A DNA stretch of 11,028 nucleotides from Chloroflexota bacterium (lineage in GTDB: Bacteria; Chloroflexota; Dehalococcoidia; UBA2979), in NCBI GenBank assembly GCA_027592975.1, contig JAQCJS010000014.1, positions 1 to 11,028 on the forward strand, in the 5' to 3' direction. Each line of letters starts with the position of its first letter. Positions within the stretch are counted from its first letter, which is position 1. Positions 1-10,033 of the stretch are shown here, one piece after another. The notes beneath the pieces are model-generated. The model saw only the letters and a program-made list of their open reading frames with translations, was not told where the DNA came from and searched no databases. A program made the translations under genes and the position numbers.

Positions 1-1074
1 TCGACGGTCGCACTCTGCGACACCAACGGCGGCTCGCTGCCGGAGGCGGTGGTGCGCGGAGTGACCGAGGCGGGGCGCAGCGTGGACTGCGCGATCGGCA
101 TCCACGTCCACAACGACGCCGACCTCGCGGTTGCGAACACGCTGCTGGCGGTGCAGGCCGGGGCGACGCAGGTGCAGGCCTGCCTCAATGGCTGGGGCGA
201 GCGCTGCGGCAACGCGAACATCATCTCGGTGATCGCGAACCTCCAGCTCAAGCTCGGCATCGCGGTGATCAGCGCGCAGCAACTGGCGCGGCTCACGGAG
301 CTGGCGCACTTCGCCTCGGAGCTGGCGAACCTCGCGCCCAACGCGCAGCAGCCCTACGTGGGGACGAGCGCGTTCGCGCACAAGGCGGGGCTGCACGTCG
401 CTGCGATCACGAAGTCGGCGGGCTCCTACACCCACGTCGACCCGGCGCTGGTCGGCAACGCGGAGCGCGTGCTCGTCTCCGAGCTGTCGGGGCGGCGCAA
501 CATCCTGGCCAAGCTGAGCGAGCAGGCGGCCGACATCGCGCTCACGGACGCCGAGGCGAGCGCGCTCGCCGACCGCGTGAAGGAGCAGGAGGCGAAGGGC
601 TTCCAGTACGAGGGCGCGGAGGCCTCGTTCGAGCTGCTGGTCCGTCGATCGCTGGACGGCTACGTGGCGCCGTTCGAGATGGAGGACTTCCTGATCGTGC
701 AGCGCCGCCGCAACCTGCGCGGCGCCGAGGAGAACGAGATGCAGGCCGAGGCGATGGTCAAGGTGCGCGTCGGCGCGACGCTGACGCAGACCGCGGCCGA
801 CGGCAACGGACCGGTCTCCGCGCTGGACGGTGCGGTGCGGCGCGGGCTGCTGGAGTCCTTCCCGGAGCTGGAGCACGTACACCTGGTGGACTACAAGGTA
901 CGCATCATCAACCCCGCGGGCGGCTCCGACGCGGCGGTGCGCGTGCTCATCGAGTCCTCGGACGGCGCGCACCTCTGGCGGACCGTCGGCGCCTCGACGG
1001 ACGTGGTCGAGGCGTCGTGGCTGGCGCTGCAGGACTCCTATGAATACTGGATTCAGCGCTGGGCCAGCGCCTGA
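1..1074 (+). CDS. cimA: (R)-citramalate synthase, 5'-truncated by the window edge
   Basis: CimA condenses acetyl-CoA with pyruvate to give (R)-citramalate, the entry to the threonine-independent isoleucine pathway. The frame is open from base 1, so the gene starts outside the window; 357 residues are visible out of a usual 520-540. Visible residues 6-11 (CDTNGG) and the HVHND metal-binding motif (His35, His37) belong to the C-terminal part of the DRE-TIM (HMGL-like) barrel. NGWGERCGNAN, SAFAHKAGLHV and LVSELSGRRN are typical of CimA rather than of 2-isopropylmalate synthase. Roughly the last 130 residues match the LeuA-type allosteric domain, which in this family binds the end-product amino acid. 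It ends with TGA and converges on the zinc-ribbon gene. The alternative, LeuA, is less likely because of the SGRRN linker region and the C-terminal style. The family is sure; the exact product is fairly sure. Confidence 0.93.
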   Translation, partial: STVALCDTNGGSLPEAVVRGVTEAGRSVDCAIGIHVHNDADLAVANTLLAVQAGATQVQACLNGWGERCGNANIISVIANLQLKLGIAVISAQQLARLTELAHFASELANLAPNAQQPYVGTSAFAHKAGLHVAAITKSAGSYTHVDPALVGNAERVLVSELSGRRNILAKLSEQAADIALTDAEASALADRVKEQEAKGFQYEGAEASFELLVRRSLDGYVAPFEMEDFLIVQRRRNLRGAEENEMQAEAMVKVRVGATLTQTAADGNGPVSALDGAVRRGLLESFPELEHVHLVDYKVRIINPAGGSDAAVRVLIESSDGAHLWRTVGASTDVVEASWLALQDSYEYWIQRWASA

Positions 1075-1158: not shown

Positions 1159-1371
1159 CTAGAGGCGGAGCTTGCCGTGCGAGGGCTGGCGGCGGCGCTG
1201 CTTGCCGGCGGCCAGGCGCTCTTCCTCCTCGAGGTCCTTCGGGTCACAGCGCTGGGCCTCGTGCACGTAGCCACAGGCCACACACGTCCCAAACTGGCCG
1301 TACCAGTCGTCCTCGATGATCATCAGCCCGCGACAACGCGGGCACTTCTTTGGCGGCGCGCTTACGATCAT
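1159..1371 (-). CDS. Small zinc-ribbon protein with basic tail, under a c-di-AMP riboswitch
   Basis: This is a 70-residue protein of unknown function. Two cysteine pairs, CPRC (residues 10-13) and CVAC (residues 30-33), lie 16 residues apart and form a zinc ribbon of the kind seen in many tiny bacterial proteins. The spacer holds a WYGQF segment. After the ribbon, an acidic stretch (DLEEEE) is followed by a strongly basic tail ending near KLRL, which could contact nucleic acid; that is inference. The ATG at 1371 is chosen because a consensus AAGGAGGG lies 5 bases upstream. The frame stays open further upstream, but that extension would translate the riboswitch and lacks family-like sequence. 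It is monocistronic as far as visible: cimA converges from the other side. The long regulated leader argues that its level matters to the cell. It is the only gene visible downstream of the riboswitch. Confidence 0.82.
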   Translation of the reverse strand: MIVSAPPKKCPRCRGLMIIEDDWYGQFGTCVACGYVHEAQRCDPKDLEEEERLAAGKQRRRQPSHGKLRL

Positions 1372-1376
1372 TGCCG

Positions 1377-1384
1377 CCCTCCTT
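1377..1384 (-). promoter_or_regulatory. Shine-Dalgarno of the zinc-ribbon gene
   Basis: AAGGAGGG on the minus strand sits 5 bases before the ATG at 1371 and fixes that start against longer in-frame options. It directly follows a possible stem (1425-1429 with 1385-1389), so its access could depend on leader folding. Confidence 0.85.
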
Positions 1385-1429
1385 CTGGAATCGTCCGCAT
1401 CCGGCATCCCGCCGGCCGGGCTGATCCAG
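1385..1429 (-). promoter_or_regulatory. Possible expression platform between riboswitch and start codon
   Basis: In RNA sense, CUGGA (1429-1425) can pair with UCCAG (1389-1385), enclosing a second hairpin CCGGC (1415-1411), loop 1410-1406, GCCGG (1405-1401). The 5' arm of the outer stem abuts the 3' arm of riboswitch helix P1, and its 3' arm abuts the Shine-Dalgarno. There is no U-run, so translational control is more likely than an intrinsic terminator. The pairing is read by eye; no folding energy was computed. Confidence 0.4.
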
Positions 1430-1430
1430 G

Positions 1431-1543
1431 CAGCCTCCGAGGTTAGCTGTCGGGTTCGGGCTGGTTCAGTATGCCCGTCCTTCCCACTGGAAGGATTCAC
1501 CCCATCAAATTGGGTCCCCCGGTCTCGACCCGAGATTCGGCTG
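1431..1543 (-). promoter_or_regulatory. Cyclic di-AMP riboswitch (ydaO/yuaA class)
   Basis: On the minus strand the leader carries the conserved blocks of the ydaO/yuaA aptamer in the right order: CCGAAUC (1540-1534), GGGGGACCCAA (1520-1510), GGGGUGAAUC (1503-1494) and CCGAACCCGACAGCUAACCU ending in CGG (about 1459-1437). Helices visible by eye are P1 (CAGCC 1543-1539 with GGCUG 1435-1431), a hairpin UCUCG/CGAGA (1535-1531 with 1527-1523), and CCUUCC/GGAAGG with an AGUG loop (1494-1479). Known members sense c-di-AMP and usually switch expression off when it is abundant; classical targets are cell-wall hydrolases and potassium or osmolyte transport. Here the first and only gene downstream on this strand is the 70-aa zinc-ribbon protein. 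Recognition rests on remembered consensus and helix complementarity, not on a covariance-model score. Confidence 0.9.
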
Positions 1544-1552
1544 GCCACGCAT

Positions 1553-1573
1553 CACGAGCGTGAACGGCTCGTG
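1553..1573 (-). other. Hairpin at the 5' end of the riboswitch transcript
   Basis: CACGAGC (1573-1567) and GCUCGUG (1559-1553) form a perfect 7-bp stem with a 7-base loop. It lies between the predicted transcription start (about 1581) and the aptamer. It could protect the 5' end of the leader or help the aptamer fold; no function is established. Confidence 0.5.
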
Positions 1574-1587
1574 CTTGTGACAACAAG

Positions 1588-1615
1588 AGCATAGTCACCG
1601 CCCCCACCTTGTCAA
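1588..1615 (-). promoter_or_regulatory. Sigma-70-type promoter for the riboswitch/zinc-ribbon transcript
   Basis: On the minus strand a perfect -35 TTGACA (1615-1610) is followed after 16 bases by -10 TATGCT (1593-1588). Transcription would start near 1581, giving a leader of about 210 nt that contains the whole aptamer. It is the strongest promoter match I see in the window. Confidence 0.75.
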
Positions 1616-1795: not shown

Positions 1796-2893
1796 ATGCA
1801 CGTCTCCCAAGCGAACGAGCTGATCCGGGCCACTGCCGCGGCGATCGGCCCGCTGGACGCCAGGGCCTCCCACGCCGCAGCCGAGCGGCAGCAATCGCTC
1901 ACCAAGCCCCCGGGGTCGCTGGGACGGCTGGAGGATCTGGCGCTCCGGATCGCCGGCATCCGTGGGCTGGCCCGCCCGCGTCTCGATCACCGGCTGGTCG
2001 TGATCGCGGCCGGTGACCACGGCGTCGCGGCGCAGGGGGTCTCTGCCTATCCACCGGAGGTCACCGGGCAGATGGTGCAGAACTTCCTGGCCGGGGGTGC
2101 CGCCATCAACGTGCTGGCCGCCCATGCCGGGGCCCGCGTCCTCGTGGTGGACGCGGGGGTCGCATCGGAGACGCCCGAGGACCCGCGCCTCGTCCGCCTG
2201 CGACTCGGGCCGGGGACGGCGGACATCACCCGCGGGCCGGCGATGTCCCGTGACCACGCGAGCCTTGCGGTCGCCGCGGGCATCAACCTCGTCGCCGAGG
2301 AGACCCGGCGCGCGGGGCTGGAGATCGTGGGCGCAGGCGAGATGGGGATCGGGAACAGCACTGCCGCGGCTGCGATCATCGCAGCCGCCACCGGTCACCC
2401 CGCCCGCGCCGTGACCGGGCGTGGGACCGGCATCGACGACGACCGCTTCGAGACGAAGGTGCGTGCCGTGGAGGCCGCGCTGGCGGTGAACCGGCCCGAC
2501 GCGCAGGACGGCCTGGACCTGTTGATGAAGGTGGGCGGGTACGAGATCGGCATGCTGGCGGGGGTCTACCTGGGAGCGGCATCCCTCCGCGTTCCGGCGG
2601 TAATCGACGGGATCATCTCCGGCGCCGCCGCCCTGATCGCGGAGGCGGTCGCCCCGGAGGTCCGGCCGTACCTGCTGGCATCGCACCGCTCCGCGGAGCC
2701 CGGCCACGCGGCCACGCTGGAGCACCTCCGACTCGAGCCGCTTCTGGACCTGGGGATGCGGCTGGGCGAGGGCAGCGGGGCAGCGCTCGGCATCTCGCTG
2801 TGCGTCGCCGCCTGCCGGGTACTCGACGAGATGTCCACGTTCGCCGAGGCTGGTGTCTCGGGGTCGGAGGACGTTGTGGAACCGGAGTCCTGA
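1796..2893 (+). CDS. cobT: Nicotinate-nucleotide--dimethylbenzimidazole phosphoribosyltransferase
   Basis: CobT transfers phosphoribose from nicotinate mononucleotide to the lower-ligand base (classically 5,6-dimethylbenzimidazole), giving alpha-ribazole phosphate for cobalamin assembly in the cytoplasm. The 365 residues match the usual 340-360. Visible family motifs are KPPGSLGRLE (37-46), GDHGV (73-77), GEMGIGNSTAA (181-191), TGRGTGIDDD (207-216), the ASHRSAEPGH segment (295-304) and RLGEGSGA (322-329), whose Glu325 corresponds to the catalytic base region of characterised CobT enzymes. The ATG is preceded by GAGGA with a 10-base gap. It is the first gene of cobT-cobS-cobU; its stop is followed after one base by the cobS start, so translation is probably coupled. 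Which base it activates in this organism cannot be read from the sequence. Confidence 0.96.
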   Translation: MHVSQANELIRATAAAIGPLDARASHAAAERQQSLTKPPGSLGRLEDLALRIAGIRGLARPRLDHRLVVIAAGDHGVAAQGVSAYPPEVTGQMVQNFLAGGAAINVLAAHAGARVLVVDAGVASETPEDPRLVRLRLGPGTADITRGPAMSRDHASLAVAAGINLVAEETRRAGLEIVGAGEMGIGNSTAAAAIIAAATGHPARAVTGRGTGIDDDRFETKVRAVEAALAVNRPDAQDGLDLLMKVGGYEIGMLAGVYLGAASLRVPAVIDGIISGAAALIAEAVAPEVRPYLLASHRSAEPGHAATLEHLRLEPLLDLGMRLGEGSGAALGISLCVAACRVLDEMSTFAEAGVSGSEDVVEPES

Positions 2894-2894
2894 C

Positions 2895-3671
2895 GTGCCG
2901 GTCCTGAACGGCGCGCTCATCGCCATCGAGTTCCTGACTCCGCTCCGACTCCGGAAGGTGCAGACGTACGACGACCGCGTCTTCGCGCAGGCGCTCGGCT
3001 GGTATCCGTTCGCCGGGCTGCTGATCGGCGTGATGCTGGTGCTCGTGGAGCGAGGCCTGAGCGAGCTGCTCCCCGCCGCCCCCACCGCCGCCCTCCTGGT
3101 CGCCGCGCTCGCGCTCTTCTCGGGCGGGCTCCACCTGGACGGGGTGGCAGACACGGCGGACGGCATGGCGGTGCAGGGTGACCGCGCCGAGCGGCTCGGC
3201 GTGATGAGCGAGGGGAACACCGGCCCCGCCGGGGTCATGGCACTGGTGCTGGTACTGCTCGCGCAGTGGTCAGCGCTGGCCAGCCTCCCGGAGGAGGCGA
3301 AGACCGCAGCGCTCCTGGTCGCTCCGGTCCTTGCACGCTGGACGGTGGTGCCGGTCGCGCTCCTCTTCCGGCCGGCACGCCCCCGTGGCCTGGGCCATGC
3401 GATCCACGCCGGACTCTGGCCGATCGCCGCACCGCTCGCCACCGCCATCGGCGTGTCCGTCGCACTCCTCGCGTTCGGCGTCGCGGGGCTCGTGCTCGTG
3501 CTGGTCGCGGCGCTCACGGCGATCCTGATCGCCGGAGCCGCCGCGCGGATGCTGGATGGGGTGACCGGCGACGTCTACGGCGCGGGGATCGAGGTCGCGC
3601 AGGTGGCGCTCTGGCTCGCGGTCGTTGCCTCCGTGAACCACGGCTGGGCAGAACCCCTCCTGGAGCTCTAG
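2895..3671 (+). CDS. cobS: Adenosylcobinamide-GDP ribazoletransferase (cobalamin synthase)
   Basis: CobS is the membrane enzyme that joins adenosylcobinamide-GDP to alpha-ribazole or its phosphate, finishing the nucleotide loop of cobalamin. The 258 residues have several hydrophobic helices and the family signature GGLHLDGVADTADG (77-90), whose aspartates bind Mg2+. The next conserved segment reads MSEGNTGPAG (104-113) where many homologues have a MKDSRIG-like sequence, a noticeable but probably harmless variant. The GTG at 2895 is preferred: GGAG (2884-2887) lies 7 bases upstream and it begins one base after the cobT stop. A longer in-frame start at 2853 would overlap cobT and add a non-hydrophobic, non-family N-terminus. 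The next gene, cobU, starts 2 bases after the stop. Confidence 0.94.
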   Translation: MPVLNGALIAIEFLTPLRLRKVQTYDDRVFAQALGWYPFAGLLIGVMLVLVERGLSELLPAAPTAALLVAALALFSGGLHLDGVADTADGMAVQGDRAERLGVMSEGNTGPAGVMALVLVLLAQWSALASLPEEAKTAALLVAPVLARWTVVPVALLFRPARPRGLGHAIHAGLWPIAAPLATAIGVSVALLAFGVAGLVLVLVAALTAILIAGAAARMLDGVTGDVYGAGIEVAQVALWLAVVASVNHGWAEPLLEL

Positions 3672-3673
3672 CC

Positions 3674-4264
3674 GTGGGCCGGCTCCTCCTGGTCACGGGT
3701 GGCGCACGCAGCGGCAAGTCGGCCTTCGCCGAACACCTCGCCGGCGAATCGCGGCGCCCGGTCTACTACCTCGCCACGATGGAGCCCGGCGACGAAGAGC
3801 TCCGGGACCGTGTCGCCCGGCACCGAGCGCGCCGGCCCGCCGACTGGATGACCGTGGAGGAGCCCCGCGCGATCGCGGAGGCGGTCGCGGACGCGCCCGG
3901 GGACGCGTGCGTCCTGCTGGACTGCCTCTCGCTGTGGGTGACGAACCGACTGCTCGAACTGGACGACGAGGAGCCGACGCTGGACGCGCTCGACGCGCTG
4001 GAAACAGCGCTCGACGGGGAGGTCGACCGGCTGATCGAGGCGGGGCGCCGTCGCCCGGGGCCCACGATCGTCGTCACGAACGAAGTCGGCTCCGGACTCG
4101 TCCCCCCATACCCGCTGGGCCGCGCGTACCGGGACGTGCTGGGCCGCGCAAACCAGCGTGTCTCGCGGGCAGCGGACGGGGCATGGTTGCTTGTCGCCGG
4201 GCGGGCGCTGGAGCTACCGTCCCCGGCCCAGCCGCCGGGGACGGGCGAGACGCTGGACGCCTGA
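3674..4264 (+). CDS. cobU: Adenosylcobinamide kinase / adenosylcobinamide-phosphate guanylyltransferase
   Basis: This bifunctional enzyme phosphorylates adenosylcobinamide and then transfers GMP to it, giving the adenosylcobinamide-GDP used by CobS. Its 196 residues fit the family (about 180-200). A Walker A motif GGARSGKS (9-16) stands at the N-terminus, followed by ATMEPGDEE (34-42) and the RVARHRARRPADW segment. His50 there matches the histidine that is guanylylated in CobU. LLDCLSLWVTN and VTNEVGSGLVPPYPLGRAYRD, followed by GRANQ, are further family hallmarks. The GTG start at 3674 puts the P-loop at the usual distance from the N-terminus and has GGAG (3662-3665) 8 bases upstream. The frame is open far upstream inside cobS, but that part is out-of-frame noise. 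It is the last gene of the operon and converges on the DUF2269-like gene 14 bases away. Confidence 0.95.
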   Translation: MGRLLLVTGGARSGKSAFAEHLAGESRRPVYYLATMEPGDEELRDRVARHRARRPADWMTVEEPRAIAEAVADAPGDACVLLDCLSLWVTNRLLELDDEEPTLDALDALETALDGEVDRLIEAGRRRPGPTIVVTNEVGSGLVPPYPLGRAYRDVLGRANQRVSRAADGAWLLVAGRALELPSPAQPPGTGETLDA

Positions 4265-6205: not shown

Positions 6206-7342
6206 TCAGCTGACGGTCCATGGCTGCAGCGTCACGGGCAATCGCAGTTCCTGCCCCTCCCGGAGCAGGACAACCTCCACCTCGTCACCCACCTCTGCAC
6301 TCTCAATGGCGCGCGCGAGATCCTCGAACGAATGCGTCGGGAACCCATTCACCTGAATCAACACGTCGCCCGGCTGCATCCCGGCGCGCTCCGCGGCCCC
6401 CTGCGGGGCGATCGTGGTGATGTAGAGCCCTCGGGTGGTGGAGATGCCGAGTTCAGCCGCGGAAACCTCGTCCAGCTTGACCGGCCCCGCGACGCCAAGC
6501 TGCGGGTGGAGGATCTCCTCGCCGGCGAGCAGCTGGGGCATGTATCGGACCGCCGTGTTTGACGGGACGGCGAAGCCGAGGCCCGCGAACGACTGCCCCT
6601 GCGGATTGCGGATCGAAGTGTTGATGCCGATGACCTCCCCGGCGAGGGTGAAGAGCGGACCACCGGAGTTCCCGGGGTTGAGCGCCGCGTCCGTCTGGAT
6701 CACGCCCTGGATGGAGCGCCCGCCGAACGAGGGTGAACTCCGGTTGAGCGCGGAAATGATGCCTTGCGTGACGGTGAAGTGCTCGTCGAACGGGTTGCCG
6801 ATGGCGAACACTGCCTGGCCGACCCGCACGGCAGAGGAGTCACCCAGAACGACCGGCTGCAACTGCCCCGGGTCGAATCCGTCTGCCCGGACCACGGCCA
6901 GGTCGCTGCTGGGGTCGGTCCCCACCACCGTCGCCAGGGAGGCGCTCCCGTCATACAGCGTCACCTTGATCGTCGAAAGCTGCTCGATGACGTGGTAGTT
7001 GGTGAGGATGTGCCCCTCGGTGTCCAACACCATCCCCGAGCCGCTACCGGGCCCCGAGCCGTTCTCAATGAGGACAACGGAGTTGATGACCTGCGCCACG
7101 ACGTCCGAGAGGTCCGTGACGGACTGGACCACCCCGGGCTGCTCTGAAGCGGCCGCACCGCCCGCCTCAGAGCTGTTCGCGATCGGCTGAGGGGCGGTCG
7201 CGGTCGGCGCAGCCGCCTCATCGGCCTCATCGCCGCCAATGCACCCTCCCGTGAGCAGGGCTCCCAGGCTGGCCAGCAGGAACACCGCCCCGAGCATGGT
7301 CCGCCGGGGTGCGAGTGATCGAGAGCGTTGCGTGCCAGTCAT
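6206..7342 (-). CDS. HtrA/DegP-like serine protease with one PDZ domain, lipoprotein
   Basis: This is an envelope quality-control protease that would cleave misfolded or specific exported proteins. Of 378 residues, 1-33 form a lipoprotein-type signal (twin basic start, hydrophobic core, LLTGGC with Cys34), followed by an Ala/Glu-rich spacer to about 70. The trypsin-like domain spans about 75-270 with an intact triad: His117 in TNYHV, Asp147 in SSDLAVV and Ser226 in NPGNSGGP. One PDZ domain fills about 280-375 (GLYITTIAPQGAAERAGMQPGDVLIQVNG). The lipobox is slightly unusual (Thr at -3), so simple membrane anchoring or release is possible. The ATG at 7342 is preferred over an upstream in-frame start at 7426 because GGAGG (7352-7348) lies 5 bases before it and the signal peptide then begins properly. 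A terminator follows. It is 111 bases downstream of the crotonase-family gene; I see no clear promoter in that gap. Confidence 0.93.
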   Translation of the reverse strand: MTGTQRSRSLAPRRTMLGAVFLLASLGALLTGGCIGGDEADEAAAPTATAPQPIANSSEAGGAAASEQPGVVQSVTDLSDVVAQVINSVVLIENGSGPGSGSGMVLDTEGHILTNYHVIEQLSTIKVTLYDGSASLATVVGTDPSSDLAVVRADGFDPGQLQPVVLGDSSAVRVGQAVFAIGNPFDEHFTVTQGIISALNRSSPSFGGRSIQGVIQTDAALNPGNSGGPLFTLAGEVIGINTSIRNPQGQSFAGLGFAVPSNTAVRYMPQLLAGEEILHPQLGVAGPVKLDEVSAAELGISTTRGLYITTIAPQGAAERAGMQPGDVLIQVNGFPTHSFEDLARAIESAEVGDEVEVVLLREGQELRLPVTLQPWTVS

Positions 7343-7347
7343 GGATT

Positions 7348-7352
7348 CCTCC
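7348..7352 (-). promoter_or_regulatory. Shine-Dalgarno fixing the htrA start
   Basis: GGAGG on the minus strand lies 5 bases before the ATG at 7342 and supports that start over the longer in-frame option, which has no such motif and would bury the signal peptide behind 28 extra residues. Confidence 0.75.
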
Positions 7353-7453
7353 AGCGCTTGCGCACATGGTGGAGAACGGCGGTCATCGTCGCGTTGCAGA
7401 AACGTGAACGGCAGACTAATCGGCACGGACGGCGATCGAGCATCCAGCGCGGA

Positions 7454-8383: not shown

Positions 8384-10033
8384 ATGCGGAAGCGATCGCC
8401 CAACCGACGCGTCGCGCTCACGGCCGCCCTCGTCCTGGGGGCGTTCTTCCTGATCGCGTGCGAACGCACCGCCGAGCTGATCCCGGGTGAGGGCACTCCC
8501 AAGCCGACGGCCACCGCGGCCGCGACCCAGGAGCCGCAGGCGACGCCGATCGTGGTGAACCCCGGAGCTGACGGGCCGACGGGGGCGAGCACCGGTGGTC
8601 AGGTGCTGGACGACCACACGCTTGCGCTCTCGGTCGTTCAGGTACTGGCTGCTGACCGCTCGGGCGGCTTCGAGCAGATTGTCCGGTACGGATCTGGCGT
8701 CGTCCTCGACAGCGAGGCTGGCCTGATCGCCACGGCGTACCCGGTCGTACGCCCGTACGGGCCGGACGGCACCGACGCCTACACCCACATCATCATCGCG
8801 ACCAACCGGGTGCCCGGGACAGAGCCGGTGCGCGAGTTCCTCGCCGAGCTCGTCGCTGCCGATCCAGGCATCGACCTGGCGGTACTCCGCGTGGTCAGCG
8901 ACCTCGACGGGCAACCACTCGCGGATGGCGGGCTGGACGTGCCAGCAGCGATCCTGGGCTATGCAACCACCGCGAGCACCGGCTTCGCCCTCCGCCTCTT
9001 CGGGCATCCGGGGATGAGCGCCCCGGAATCGTCCCTCGGCCCTCAAGTCGTGGAGACGGCGCAGGCGACGATCACCGGGCAACGGGGTAGCGCTCTGCGC
9101 ACCGGACGTACCTGGTTCAAGATGGACGGCCGCATGCCGTACGGCGCCGCCGGCGGGCCGGCATTCGACCGGTTCGGCGCGCTCGTTGGATTCCTCGCAC
9201 AGGACGAGTACGTCCCCTCCGGCACCGTCGGACAGGTGCGCCCCCTGGACTTCGTCACCCCGCTGCTGGACGAGGCACGCGAGGCCCGAAGCTTCCAGGC
9301 ACCACTCCATCGGACTGCCACGCTCCCCGGCTCGCTCGCCACCCCTCCCCCGTCCGCGGCGTACGTCTCCCGCCCGGCGTTCGCCGAGAACGCGATCGAG
9401 AGCGCGCAGGGCCGCGATCTGTTCGACTACGAGACGCGCTTCGCGGCTGGCCTGGGCACCCTCTACTACGAATACGAGGTCAGCGGCGTCGCTGACGGCA
9501 CCGTCGTCGAGGAGCGCTGGTTCCTGGACGGCGTCCGCCAAGAGTCGCTCTCCTCGTCGTTCGTCTGGTCCGCCGGGCTGTTCGGTCACGTTACCGACCG
9601 CATCACAGCACCCGGGACGGCAGGCATCCCGAGCGGAGAGTGGCGGCTGGACCTCTACGTGGCCGACATCCGCATGGCCACCGCGACGGCGGTCGTGGGA
9701 GTGCCGCTCGGGACGCCGTCCGCCGTCTACCAGGCCGCAGCGTCCGGCGTCACACTGGACGGGAGCGTCTCCGTCGGCGCGTTCTCCGGCAGCGACCAGC
9801 TCCTCATGCTCTTCGACGTCGCCGGGATGTCTGGCGCAGCGCACGTCGAGTGGAGCGTGTTCCACGACAACTGGCCGGTGTTTGCCTCCGCGACCATCTC
9901 GTGGACGTCCGGGGAGAGCGGCCGGTTCTGGGTCGGCTACGCTCCGCCGGAGGGGATCGCGGCGGGAGTGTGGGAGATCGAGCTGCGCGTGGACGGCAAC
10001 ATCGTCGGCGTGGGCTCCGTGACGCTCTTCTGA
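8384..10033 (+). CDS. HtrA-like pseudoprotease lipoprotein with two C-terminal beta domains
   Basis: This exported lipoprotein has a trypsin/HtrA-like fold but is probably not a protease. Of 549 residues, 1-26 form a lipoprotein signal with a good lipobox LIAC (Cys26), then a Thr/Pro/Ala-rich spacer to about 75. Residues 78-295 follow the HtrA pattern. GLIATAYPVV (113-122) aligns with the His loop of HtrA but has Pro120 in place of His; DPGIDLAVLRV keeps the Asp (164); GAAGGPAF (254-261) has Ala256 where the nucleophilic Ser belongs. No PDZ domain follows. Instead, two beta-rich segments (about 358-440 and 470-549) look like copies of one module, each ending in a W-x-[LI]-[DE]-L-x-V strand (SGEWRLDLYV and AGVWEIELRV). 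A role as scaffold, binding protein or regulator is inference. The start has only a weak ribosome-binding site, but the signal peptide supports it. It converges on the ABC binding-protein gene. Confidence 0.85.
   Translation: MRKRSPNRRVALTAALVLGAFFLIACERTAELIPGEGTPKPTATAAATQEPQATPIVVNPGADGPTGASTGGQVLDDHTLALSVVQVLAADRSGGFEQIVRYGSGVVLDSEAGLIATAYPVVRPYGPDGTDAYTHIIIATNRVPGTEPVREFLAELVAADPGIDLAVLRVVSDLDGQPLADGGLDVPAAILGYATTASTGFALRLFGHPGMSAPESSLGPQVVETAQATITGQRGSALRTGRTWFKMDGRMPYGAAGGPAFDRFGALVGFLAQDEYVPSGTVGQVRPLDFVTPLLDEAREARSFQAPLHRTATLPGSLATPPPSAAYVSRPAFAENAIESAQGRDLFDYETRFAAGLGTLYYEYEVSGVADGTVVEERWFLDGVRQESLSSSFVWSAGLFGHVTDRITAPGTAGIPSGEWRLDLYVADIRMATATAVVGVPLGTPSAVYQAAASGVTLDGSVSVGAFSGSDQLLMLFDVAGMSGAAHVEWSVFHDNWPVFASATISWTSGESGRFWVGYAPPEGIAAGVWEIELRVDGNIVGVGSVTLF

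Follow-up and report, generated by a model that had tools for sequence, protein, structure and literature searches.

The 11,028-nt stretch of DNA analyzed here (hereafter, the window) comes from a Chloroflexota genome and carries on its minus strand a 70-codon gene encoding the zinc-knuckle motif CPRC...CVACG, preceded by a 5′ leader with an aptamer of the c-di-AMP riboswitch class (Table 1). The preliminary description of this DNA had stated that nothing further lies downstream on the strand of this gene, which is true inside the window, as the convergent LeuA/homocitrate-synthase-like neighbor beyond the gene end is encoded on the opposite strand. The divergent neighbor is the first of several cobalamin genes, and two trypsin-like serine proteases are also encoded in the window. 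Of 14 related loci scanned, three (L020, 3346–3416; L022, 4481–4627; L025, 4518–4680 (minus)) have a cobalamin riboswitch (RF00174) on the opposite strand, close to the zinc-ribbon leader.

Table 1 Features of the zinc-ribbon locus and neighboring genes in the window
Feature	Position	Strand	Basis or remark
LeuA/homocitrate-synthase-like gene	1–1074	+	convergent neighbor
70-aa zinc-ribbon gene, conserved tail QRRRQPSHGKLRL	1159–1371	−	ATG at 1371, stop ends at 1159
Shine-Dalgarno (SD) AAGGAGGG	1377–1384	−	
TCCAG, candidate competing-helix partner of the pseudoknot strand	1385–1389	−	adjoins SD
Hairpin CCGGC-GGGAT-GCCGG	1401–1415	−	3′ of aptamer
Pseudoknot 3′ strand CTGGATCAG	1421–1429	−	its CTGGA (1429–1425) can also pair with TCCAG 5′ of SD
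c-di-AMP riboswitch aptamer, RF00379	1417–1552	−	90.8 bits
Pseudoknot loop strand CTGAACCAG	1461–1469	−	intra-aptamer; final letters touch the hairpin's own stem
Leader 5′ hairpin CACGAGC/GCTCGTG	1553–1573	−	MFE structure
Conserved element TTGTTGTCACAAGCAC	1571–1586	−	pattern search; right after −10, around the likely transcription start
Promoter TTGACA-16-TATGCT	1588–1615	−	consensus match
−10 TATGCT	1588–1593	−	
−35 TTGACA	1610–1615	−	
Operator-like TTTGTGA...TCGTGAA	1623–1640	−	sequence inspection; 5′ of −35; putative function
CobT-type phosphoribosyltransferase gene	1796–2893	+	divergent neighbor; cobalamin genes span 1796–4264
CobS gene	2853–3671		
CobU	3266–4264		domain in ORF
Trypsin-like serine protease with PDZ domain (HtrA-like)	6206–7426		
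Trypsin-like serine protease	8384–10033		

The assignment of the leader to the c-di-AMP riboswitches, made in the preliminary description from the letters of the sequence, was borne out by the covariance search: the RF00379 match covers model positions 1–134 without truncation (E 9.4e-21; gathering cut-off 38 bits), and it is the only above-cut-off Rfam match in the window. The Shine-Dalgarno sequence and the small zinc-ribbon gene were found as described. The aptamer is placed in the 5′ leader of the gene, 3′ of a promoter recognized by consensus matches only; this promoter had been called near-perfect, a wording that is slightly generous for 10 of 12 consensus bases with a −10 of 4/6, although the TTGACA-16-TATGCT pair itself is present and was found once, compared with an average of 0.0 over 50 shuffled versions of positions 1300–1720. 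The folding energy of the leader gave no signal against shuffled sequences (z −0.31). Under a lenient rule (TTGACN plus at least 3/6 in the −10), 77 of the 79 zinc-ribbon leaders have a promoter-like pair, the one in L050 being probably misplaced, and a strong hairpin near the post-aptamer position was present in 64/77 zinc-ribbon leaders versus 58/139 other leaders.

Scanning of GTDB genome contigs by protein alignment resulted in 127 loci encoding relatives of the zinc-ribbon protein; the analysis was continued with the best 80, chosen for the gene irrespective of the riboswitch. RF00379 was located just upstream in 14/14 loci scanned directly and was present in 79 of the 80 genomes (best 80 of 127 loci). 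The preliminary description had asked whether homologues of the protein recur downstream of RF00379 in Chloroflexota, and they do: an aptamer lies 21–118 nt upstream, on the same strand, in 78 of these 80 genes, the match between aptamer and gene being made by position and strand (contig identity was additionally checked for the class sample described below). No RF00379 was found in the two remaining leaders, L055 and L061, in a permissive Rfam scan. In all 15 genomes among the 80 with a single RF00379 match, that match is the zinc-ribbon leader.

The class sample consisted of 294 genomes from the class of Tepidiforma flava (locus L059), which we take to be Dehalococcoidia. When no more than 20 candidates were scored in each genome, the protein family was represented by 111 genes in 110 of these genomes at no less than 105 bits, the next match reaching 52.9 bits, and RF00379 was present in 127 genomes. 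Gene and riboswitch occurred together in 109 genomes, the gene alone in one and the riboswitch alone in 18. Directly upstream of the gene, at 27–115 nt, the aptamer was found for 88 of the 111 genes, which belong to 88 of the 127 genomes with the riboswitch; for the genomes of the genes counted as lacking it, the matches listed equaled the full stated number. The diadenylate cyclase domain PF02457 was detected in 126/294 genomes of the class sample, including 106 of the 110 protein-encoding genomes and 121 of the 127 riboswitch-holding ones. In a phylum sample of 400 genomes, with up to 15 candidates scored per genome, the family was found in 13, all within the class sample. The proposal that the zinc-ribbon gene is a target of the c-di-AMP riboswitch thus gains from a pairing that is conserved across the whole class.

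The preliminary description had named two observations that would speak against its reading, an insignificant covariance match and relatives that lack the aptamer and keep the gene. The match is significant, but leaders of the second kind do exist as a minority (2/80 loci; 23/111 class-sample genes). For these 23 genes, no RF00379 was recognized in the leader by the Rfam scan at E up to 0.5 (up to 1 for L061), and the same scan recovered 5/5 aptamer-bearing leaders used as positive controls; so, the gene can do without the aptamer. The leader of L288 contains scattered aptamer-like blocks. On a tree of 101 family members, the 17 aptamer-less ones need four state changes, 14 forming one long-branch clade and three standing singly among riboswitch-bearing relatives, and the absence of the aptamer reads as loss on this tree, which is built from 70 residues, has poor resolution (17 of its 68 inner branches are starred) and leaves out seven further aptamer-less leaders. 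The loci L277–L287, L294–L296 and L306–L308 have short leaders with no aptamer and with TTCACAA-like promoter repeats; those placed on the tree lie on the long branch.

The zinc-ribbon gene is the commonest c-di-AMP riboswitch target seen in the class. Among the 245 RF00379 matches listed in the 80 gene-holding genomes, two of which are below the cut-off, 78 belong to the zinc-ribbon gene and 167 lie away from it, the next target cluster having 39 members. For 166 of the other matches the first downstream ORFs were taken, and 20 of these were scanned with Pfam, seven remaining unmatched; note that the longest ORF served as the target, a crude rule under which several assignments may be wrong. 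Judged by their representatives, the clusters correspond to glycosyltransferase family 2 (39), radical SAM (15), MFS (13), two clusters with no Pfam match (9 and 7), sulfate permease (6), DnaX-like (6), glycosyltransferase 1 (5), trehalose-6-phosphate synthase/phosphatase (5), cytidylate-kinase-like (5) and nucleotidyltransferase with CDP-alcohol transferase (4), plus smaller ones. The trehalose and transport targets fit the known osmotic role. The largest of these clusters (L141 and 38 further loci) is represented by a glycosyltransferase of family 2, in which a cupin match falls slightly short of the cut-off.

The homologue search with the zinc-ribbon protein yielded 91 homologues; a few have source names that include an organism, and these are Chloroflexi, Chloroflexota or Dehalococcoidia, plus one "bacterium HR24". 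Across 37 aligned members, residues E20, D22, G25, C30, C33, G34, V36, R59, Q62, P63, S64, H65, G66 and L70 are invariant, and C10, C13 and the remainder of the tail QRRRQPSHGKLRL are at least 90% conserved, three rows beginning late, without C10 and C13. The two-knuckle pattern CP[RK]C..CxxCG was present in 100 of the 101 family members collected. None of the Pfam or NCBIfam models reached its cut-off with the window protein; PF08271 gave 22.7 bits against a gathering value of 29, and it matched 29 of the 37 family members at E < 0.01. The top profile and PDB matches were TFIIB, RPC10/RPB9 and similar ribbons, all of them weak. In the AlphaFold2 model (mean pLDDT 76, pTM 0.46), residues 16–22 and 25–30 form a hairpin whose turn lies close to the invariant acidic residues; the model also has a third strand and a helix (44–55), and the tail is its least certain region. 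Acidic residues near the tip of the ribbon hairpin may resemble TFIIS. The likeness to the TFIIB/RPB9/TFIIS-type ribbons (PF08271, PF02150) consists of two CxxC knuckles 16 residues apart and of the three-stranded ribbon of the model; in contrast to them, the present protein is a 70-aa stand-alone ribbon with a conserved basic tail, below every cut-off. The top-ranked fold match of both aligners, weak by both, was ZifS (TTHA0897) of Thermus thermophilus (PDB 8yoz), by its title a small bacterial zinc protein. The regulator role, nucleic-acid- or protein-binding, put forward in the preliminary description is a guess, because the profile and fold matches are all weak and point to generic zinc ribbons; a small factor associated with nucleic acid or with RNA polymerase is our tentative suggestion, somewhat short of an even bet.

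The promoter region of the gene may provide a second regulatory input. The 16-mer TTGTYGTCACAATCAC follows the −10 in the group of leaders to which the window belongs, and, with at most one mismatch, it was found exactly once in each of 16 genomes (chosen from the 40 window-group loci L001–L040), always at the zinc-ribbon promoter, while the reversed pattern gave no matches in the same genomes. The relatives of the second group carry TAAATTTGTGANNNAANNCSCAA at the place matching the operator-like element, and a 23-mer TTTGTGA pattern, drawn from the region 5′ of their −35 and searched with one mismatch allowed, gave a single match in 13 of 16 genomes, always at the zinc-ribbon promoter, and no match in the other three. 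Both patterns were drawn from these very promoters, and weaker sites may exist elsewhere. In the clade without the aptamer, the leaders still have TCACAA at the matching place. These elements are likely a dedicated operator, and the single-site character of such an operator suggests that the gene may be autoregulated.

The aptamer has a long-range pseudoknot, in which the loop of the hairpin 5′ of CCCGAA faces a complementary stretch located after P1, with seven of eight pairs possible in the window (CTGAACCA/TGGATCAG). For the 70 leaders parsed out of 79, the complementarity of each leader's own strands scored 14.5 compared with 11.5 for permuted ones (sd 0.33, maximum 12.5, 200 permutations). 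The window's group reached 13.6 against 11.7 (sd 0.36), and the second group, in which the pseudoknot letters hardly vary, 15.6 against 14.95 (sd 0.25, maximum 15.74), that is, not above every permutation. After dereplication of the window's group to 29 leaders, the values were 13.48 and 11.01 (sd 0.48), and none of 1000 permutations was as good. These permutation tests retain the effect of shared ancestry. In the ydaO construct that was crystallized, CUCCUUCG stands in the matching loop and CGAAGGAG at the end, and the pseudoknot is described as stable in the part of that paper available to us (PMC5393176); from our own reading of the printed sequence, we take this pairing to be the same pseudoknot as in the zinc-ribbon leaders. 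The ydaO/yuaA riboswitches (RF00379), such as the Bacillus kimA (ydaO) and kdpFABC leaders, share with the present leader the full model match and the long-range loop–tail pairing, and they differ from it in the target, which is here a lone zinc-ribbon gene.

The 3′ strand of the pseudoknot has a second potential partner, since its CTGGA can pair with the TCCAG that adjoins the SD in the window. With the 3′ strand fixed at 13 nt, its match to the bases of the SD region in the 29 dereplicated leaders was 12.31 versus 10.93 (sd 0.40), a value reached by 0/1000 permutations; a narrower test of the competing helix, in which the strand was restricted to the matched letters (39 leaders), was weak, 16 of 500 permutations being as good. 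In other lineages, the same strand is involved in a terminator. Terminator analysis parsed 77 of the 79 leaders, and a run of at least five U was present in 16/79; in 15 of 15 terminator-bearing zinc-ribbon leaders, the 5′ strand of the terminator overlaps the pseudoknot strand by 4–7 nt. On the protein tree, the leaders with this overlap fall in two distinct places, one being the large second group and the other L072 together with L078. The controls were six Bacillota plasmid leaders retrieved by aptamer similarity, all RF00379; by the same rule, five of them have a terminator (three are closely related and precede APC-family permease genes, and the other two precede unannotated DNA), but in none of the five is the strand shared, the terminators starting 6–35 nt further on. 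The other Chloroflexota leaders had a terminator in three of 90 parsed cases, without overlap in any of the three (76 of the 166 were unparsed). Additional structures were observed in the leaders of L042–L063, where a second hairpin, UUCGAGG...CCUCGAA, follows the first one, with or without a U-tract, and its 5′ strand is shared with the 3′ strand of the terminator. In a megaplasmid of Niallia taxi, a series of tRNA genes is followed by two c-di-AMP aptamers in tandem (L298, 1140–1285 and 1365–1506).

As to the direction of the switch, the sharing of the terminator strand favors activation by the ligand, whereas the tested members of the class and the folds of the window favor repression. Repression would proceed if the ligand-bound pseudoknot freed the UUCC before the SD, which could then fold onto GGAG and block translation; for the leaders in general, we put this at just under an even chance. 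In the energy model, the unpaired probability of the window SD was 0.70–0.71 in the free leader and dropped to 0.12–0.20 when the pseudoknot strands were withheld, and the tested RF00379-class members are switched off by the ligand according to the accessible parts of the published studies (PMC6488665, PMC9960051, PMC9337991). At the same time, UUCC is absent from the closest relatives, L001–L003, despite a 99% identical protein, the SD access of these three hardly changes in the constrained folds, and the terminator-bearing leaders point the other way. For the window leader itself, we regard repression by the ligand as an even chance.

Activation would require that the ligand-bound pseudoknot take up the strand that otherwise builds the terminator or the SD helix. 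Strand sharing points to this direction because the overlap is what an ON switch would need, and the consistency of the sharing in the zinc-ribbon leaders, its absence from both sets of other leaders and the stable pseudoknot of the crystallized ydaO RNA, with its matching loop and tail, all argue for it. Against it stand the polarity of the published members, the lack of a terminator in the window and in most other leaders, and the energy model, in which SD access with the pseudoknot strands withheld shifted by more than 0.2 in 15 of 77 leaders, 14 of them toward lower and one toward higher access; moreover, the controls are few and compared at the sequence level, and many leaders outside the zinc-ribbon group were unparsed. 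Overall, we regard an ON switch as a possibility of less than even weight, and we give it a similar, tentative standing for the window leader. For the terminator-bearing relatives, the shared strand makes activation by the ligand somewhat probable. The extension of an ON direction from strand sharing to all leaders was considered and rejected, as the constrained folds fail to support it for the window.

Whichever the direction, the reading that we prefer, with a probability of roughly 0.8, is that the c-di-AMP riboswitch in the leader controls the lone 70-aa zinc-ribbon gene and sets the amount of its product by strand competition. It is built on the computed aptamer and gene, their conserved linkage, the covariation of the pseudoknot and the strand sharing. 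The RNA transcribed from 1552–1417 would bind c-di-AMP, and this binding would stabilize the aptamer together with the long-range pseudoknot; the 3′ strand of the pseudoknot, once engaged, would be unavailable for the competing helix, which lies against the SD in the window or, in other lineages, forms the base of an intrinsic terminator, and c-di-AMP would thereby determine how much zinc-ribbon protein is made. Alternatively, a real aptamer might act elsewhere, as an RNA in trans or within a longer transcript, with the small ORF being incidental; the solitary position of the gene in the window and the neighbors that vary between loci (by crude gene calls, some of them antisense ORFs) would fit this, but the protein is strongly conserved in its cysteines and tail and the gene stays beside the aptamer while its neighbors change, so that we consider such action very improbable. 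Retention by chance of a decayed riboswitch, to which the empty or degenerate-looking leaders of L055, L061 and L288 could be ascribed, is even harder to credit, given the high scores and the co-varying pseudoknot across diverse lineages.

The preliminary description considered the zinc-ribbon protein an unusual target for the class, and this agrees with the accessible portions of the literature, in which the described targets are K+ and amino-acid transporters and wall-remodeling or osmotic-shock proteins (PMC7266159) or a wall peptidase and transporters (PMC9960051). In the part of the c-di-AMP/ydaO riboswitch literature accessible to us, which includes few subscription papers, we found neither a description of the zinc-ribbon pairing, an earlier mention of which is possible, for example in the founding gene list of 2013, nor a description of a c-di-AMP ON riboswitch. 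The riboswitch class is known, the target is new and the expression platform is perhaps new. A more far-reaching and rather unlikely proposal sees in the zinc-ribbon leaders natural ON switches for c-di-AMP, in which the pseudoknot is merged with the terminator or with the SD-flanking helix, and in the protein an output factor of c-di-AMP that is specific to the class, regulates itself and acts on transcription or translation; it would be the single riboswitch target retained by genomes that have only one.

In the available sources, most of the targets described for these riboswitches are transporters or wall enzymes, from Bacillota and Actinomycetota. A poorly cultured class that most often puts the riboswitch on an uncharacterized 70-aa protein offers a testable candidate for a core c-di-AMP output, and the pairing is present in Tepidiforma flava YIM 72310 (L059), a named strain with a complete genome, in which it can be tested. 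If the terminator-sharing leaders are indeed ON switches, the view of this riboswitch class as purely repressing would be overturned.
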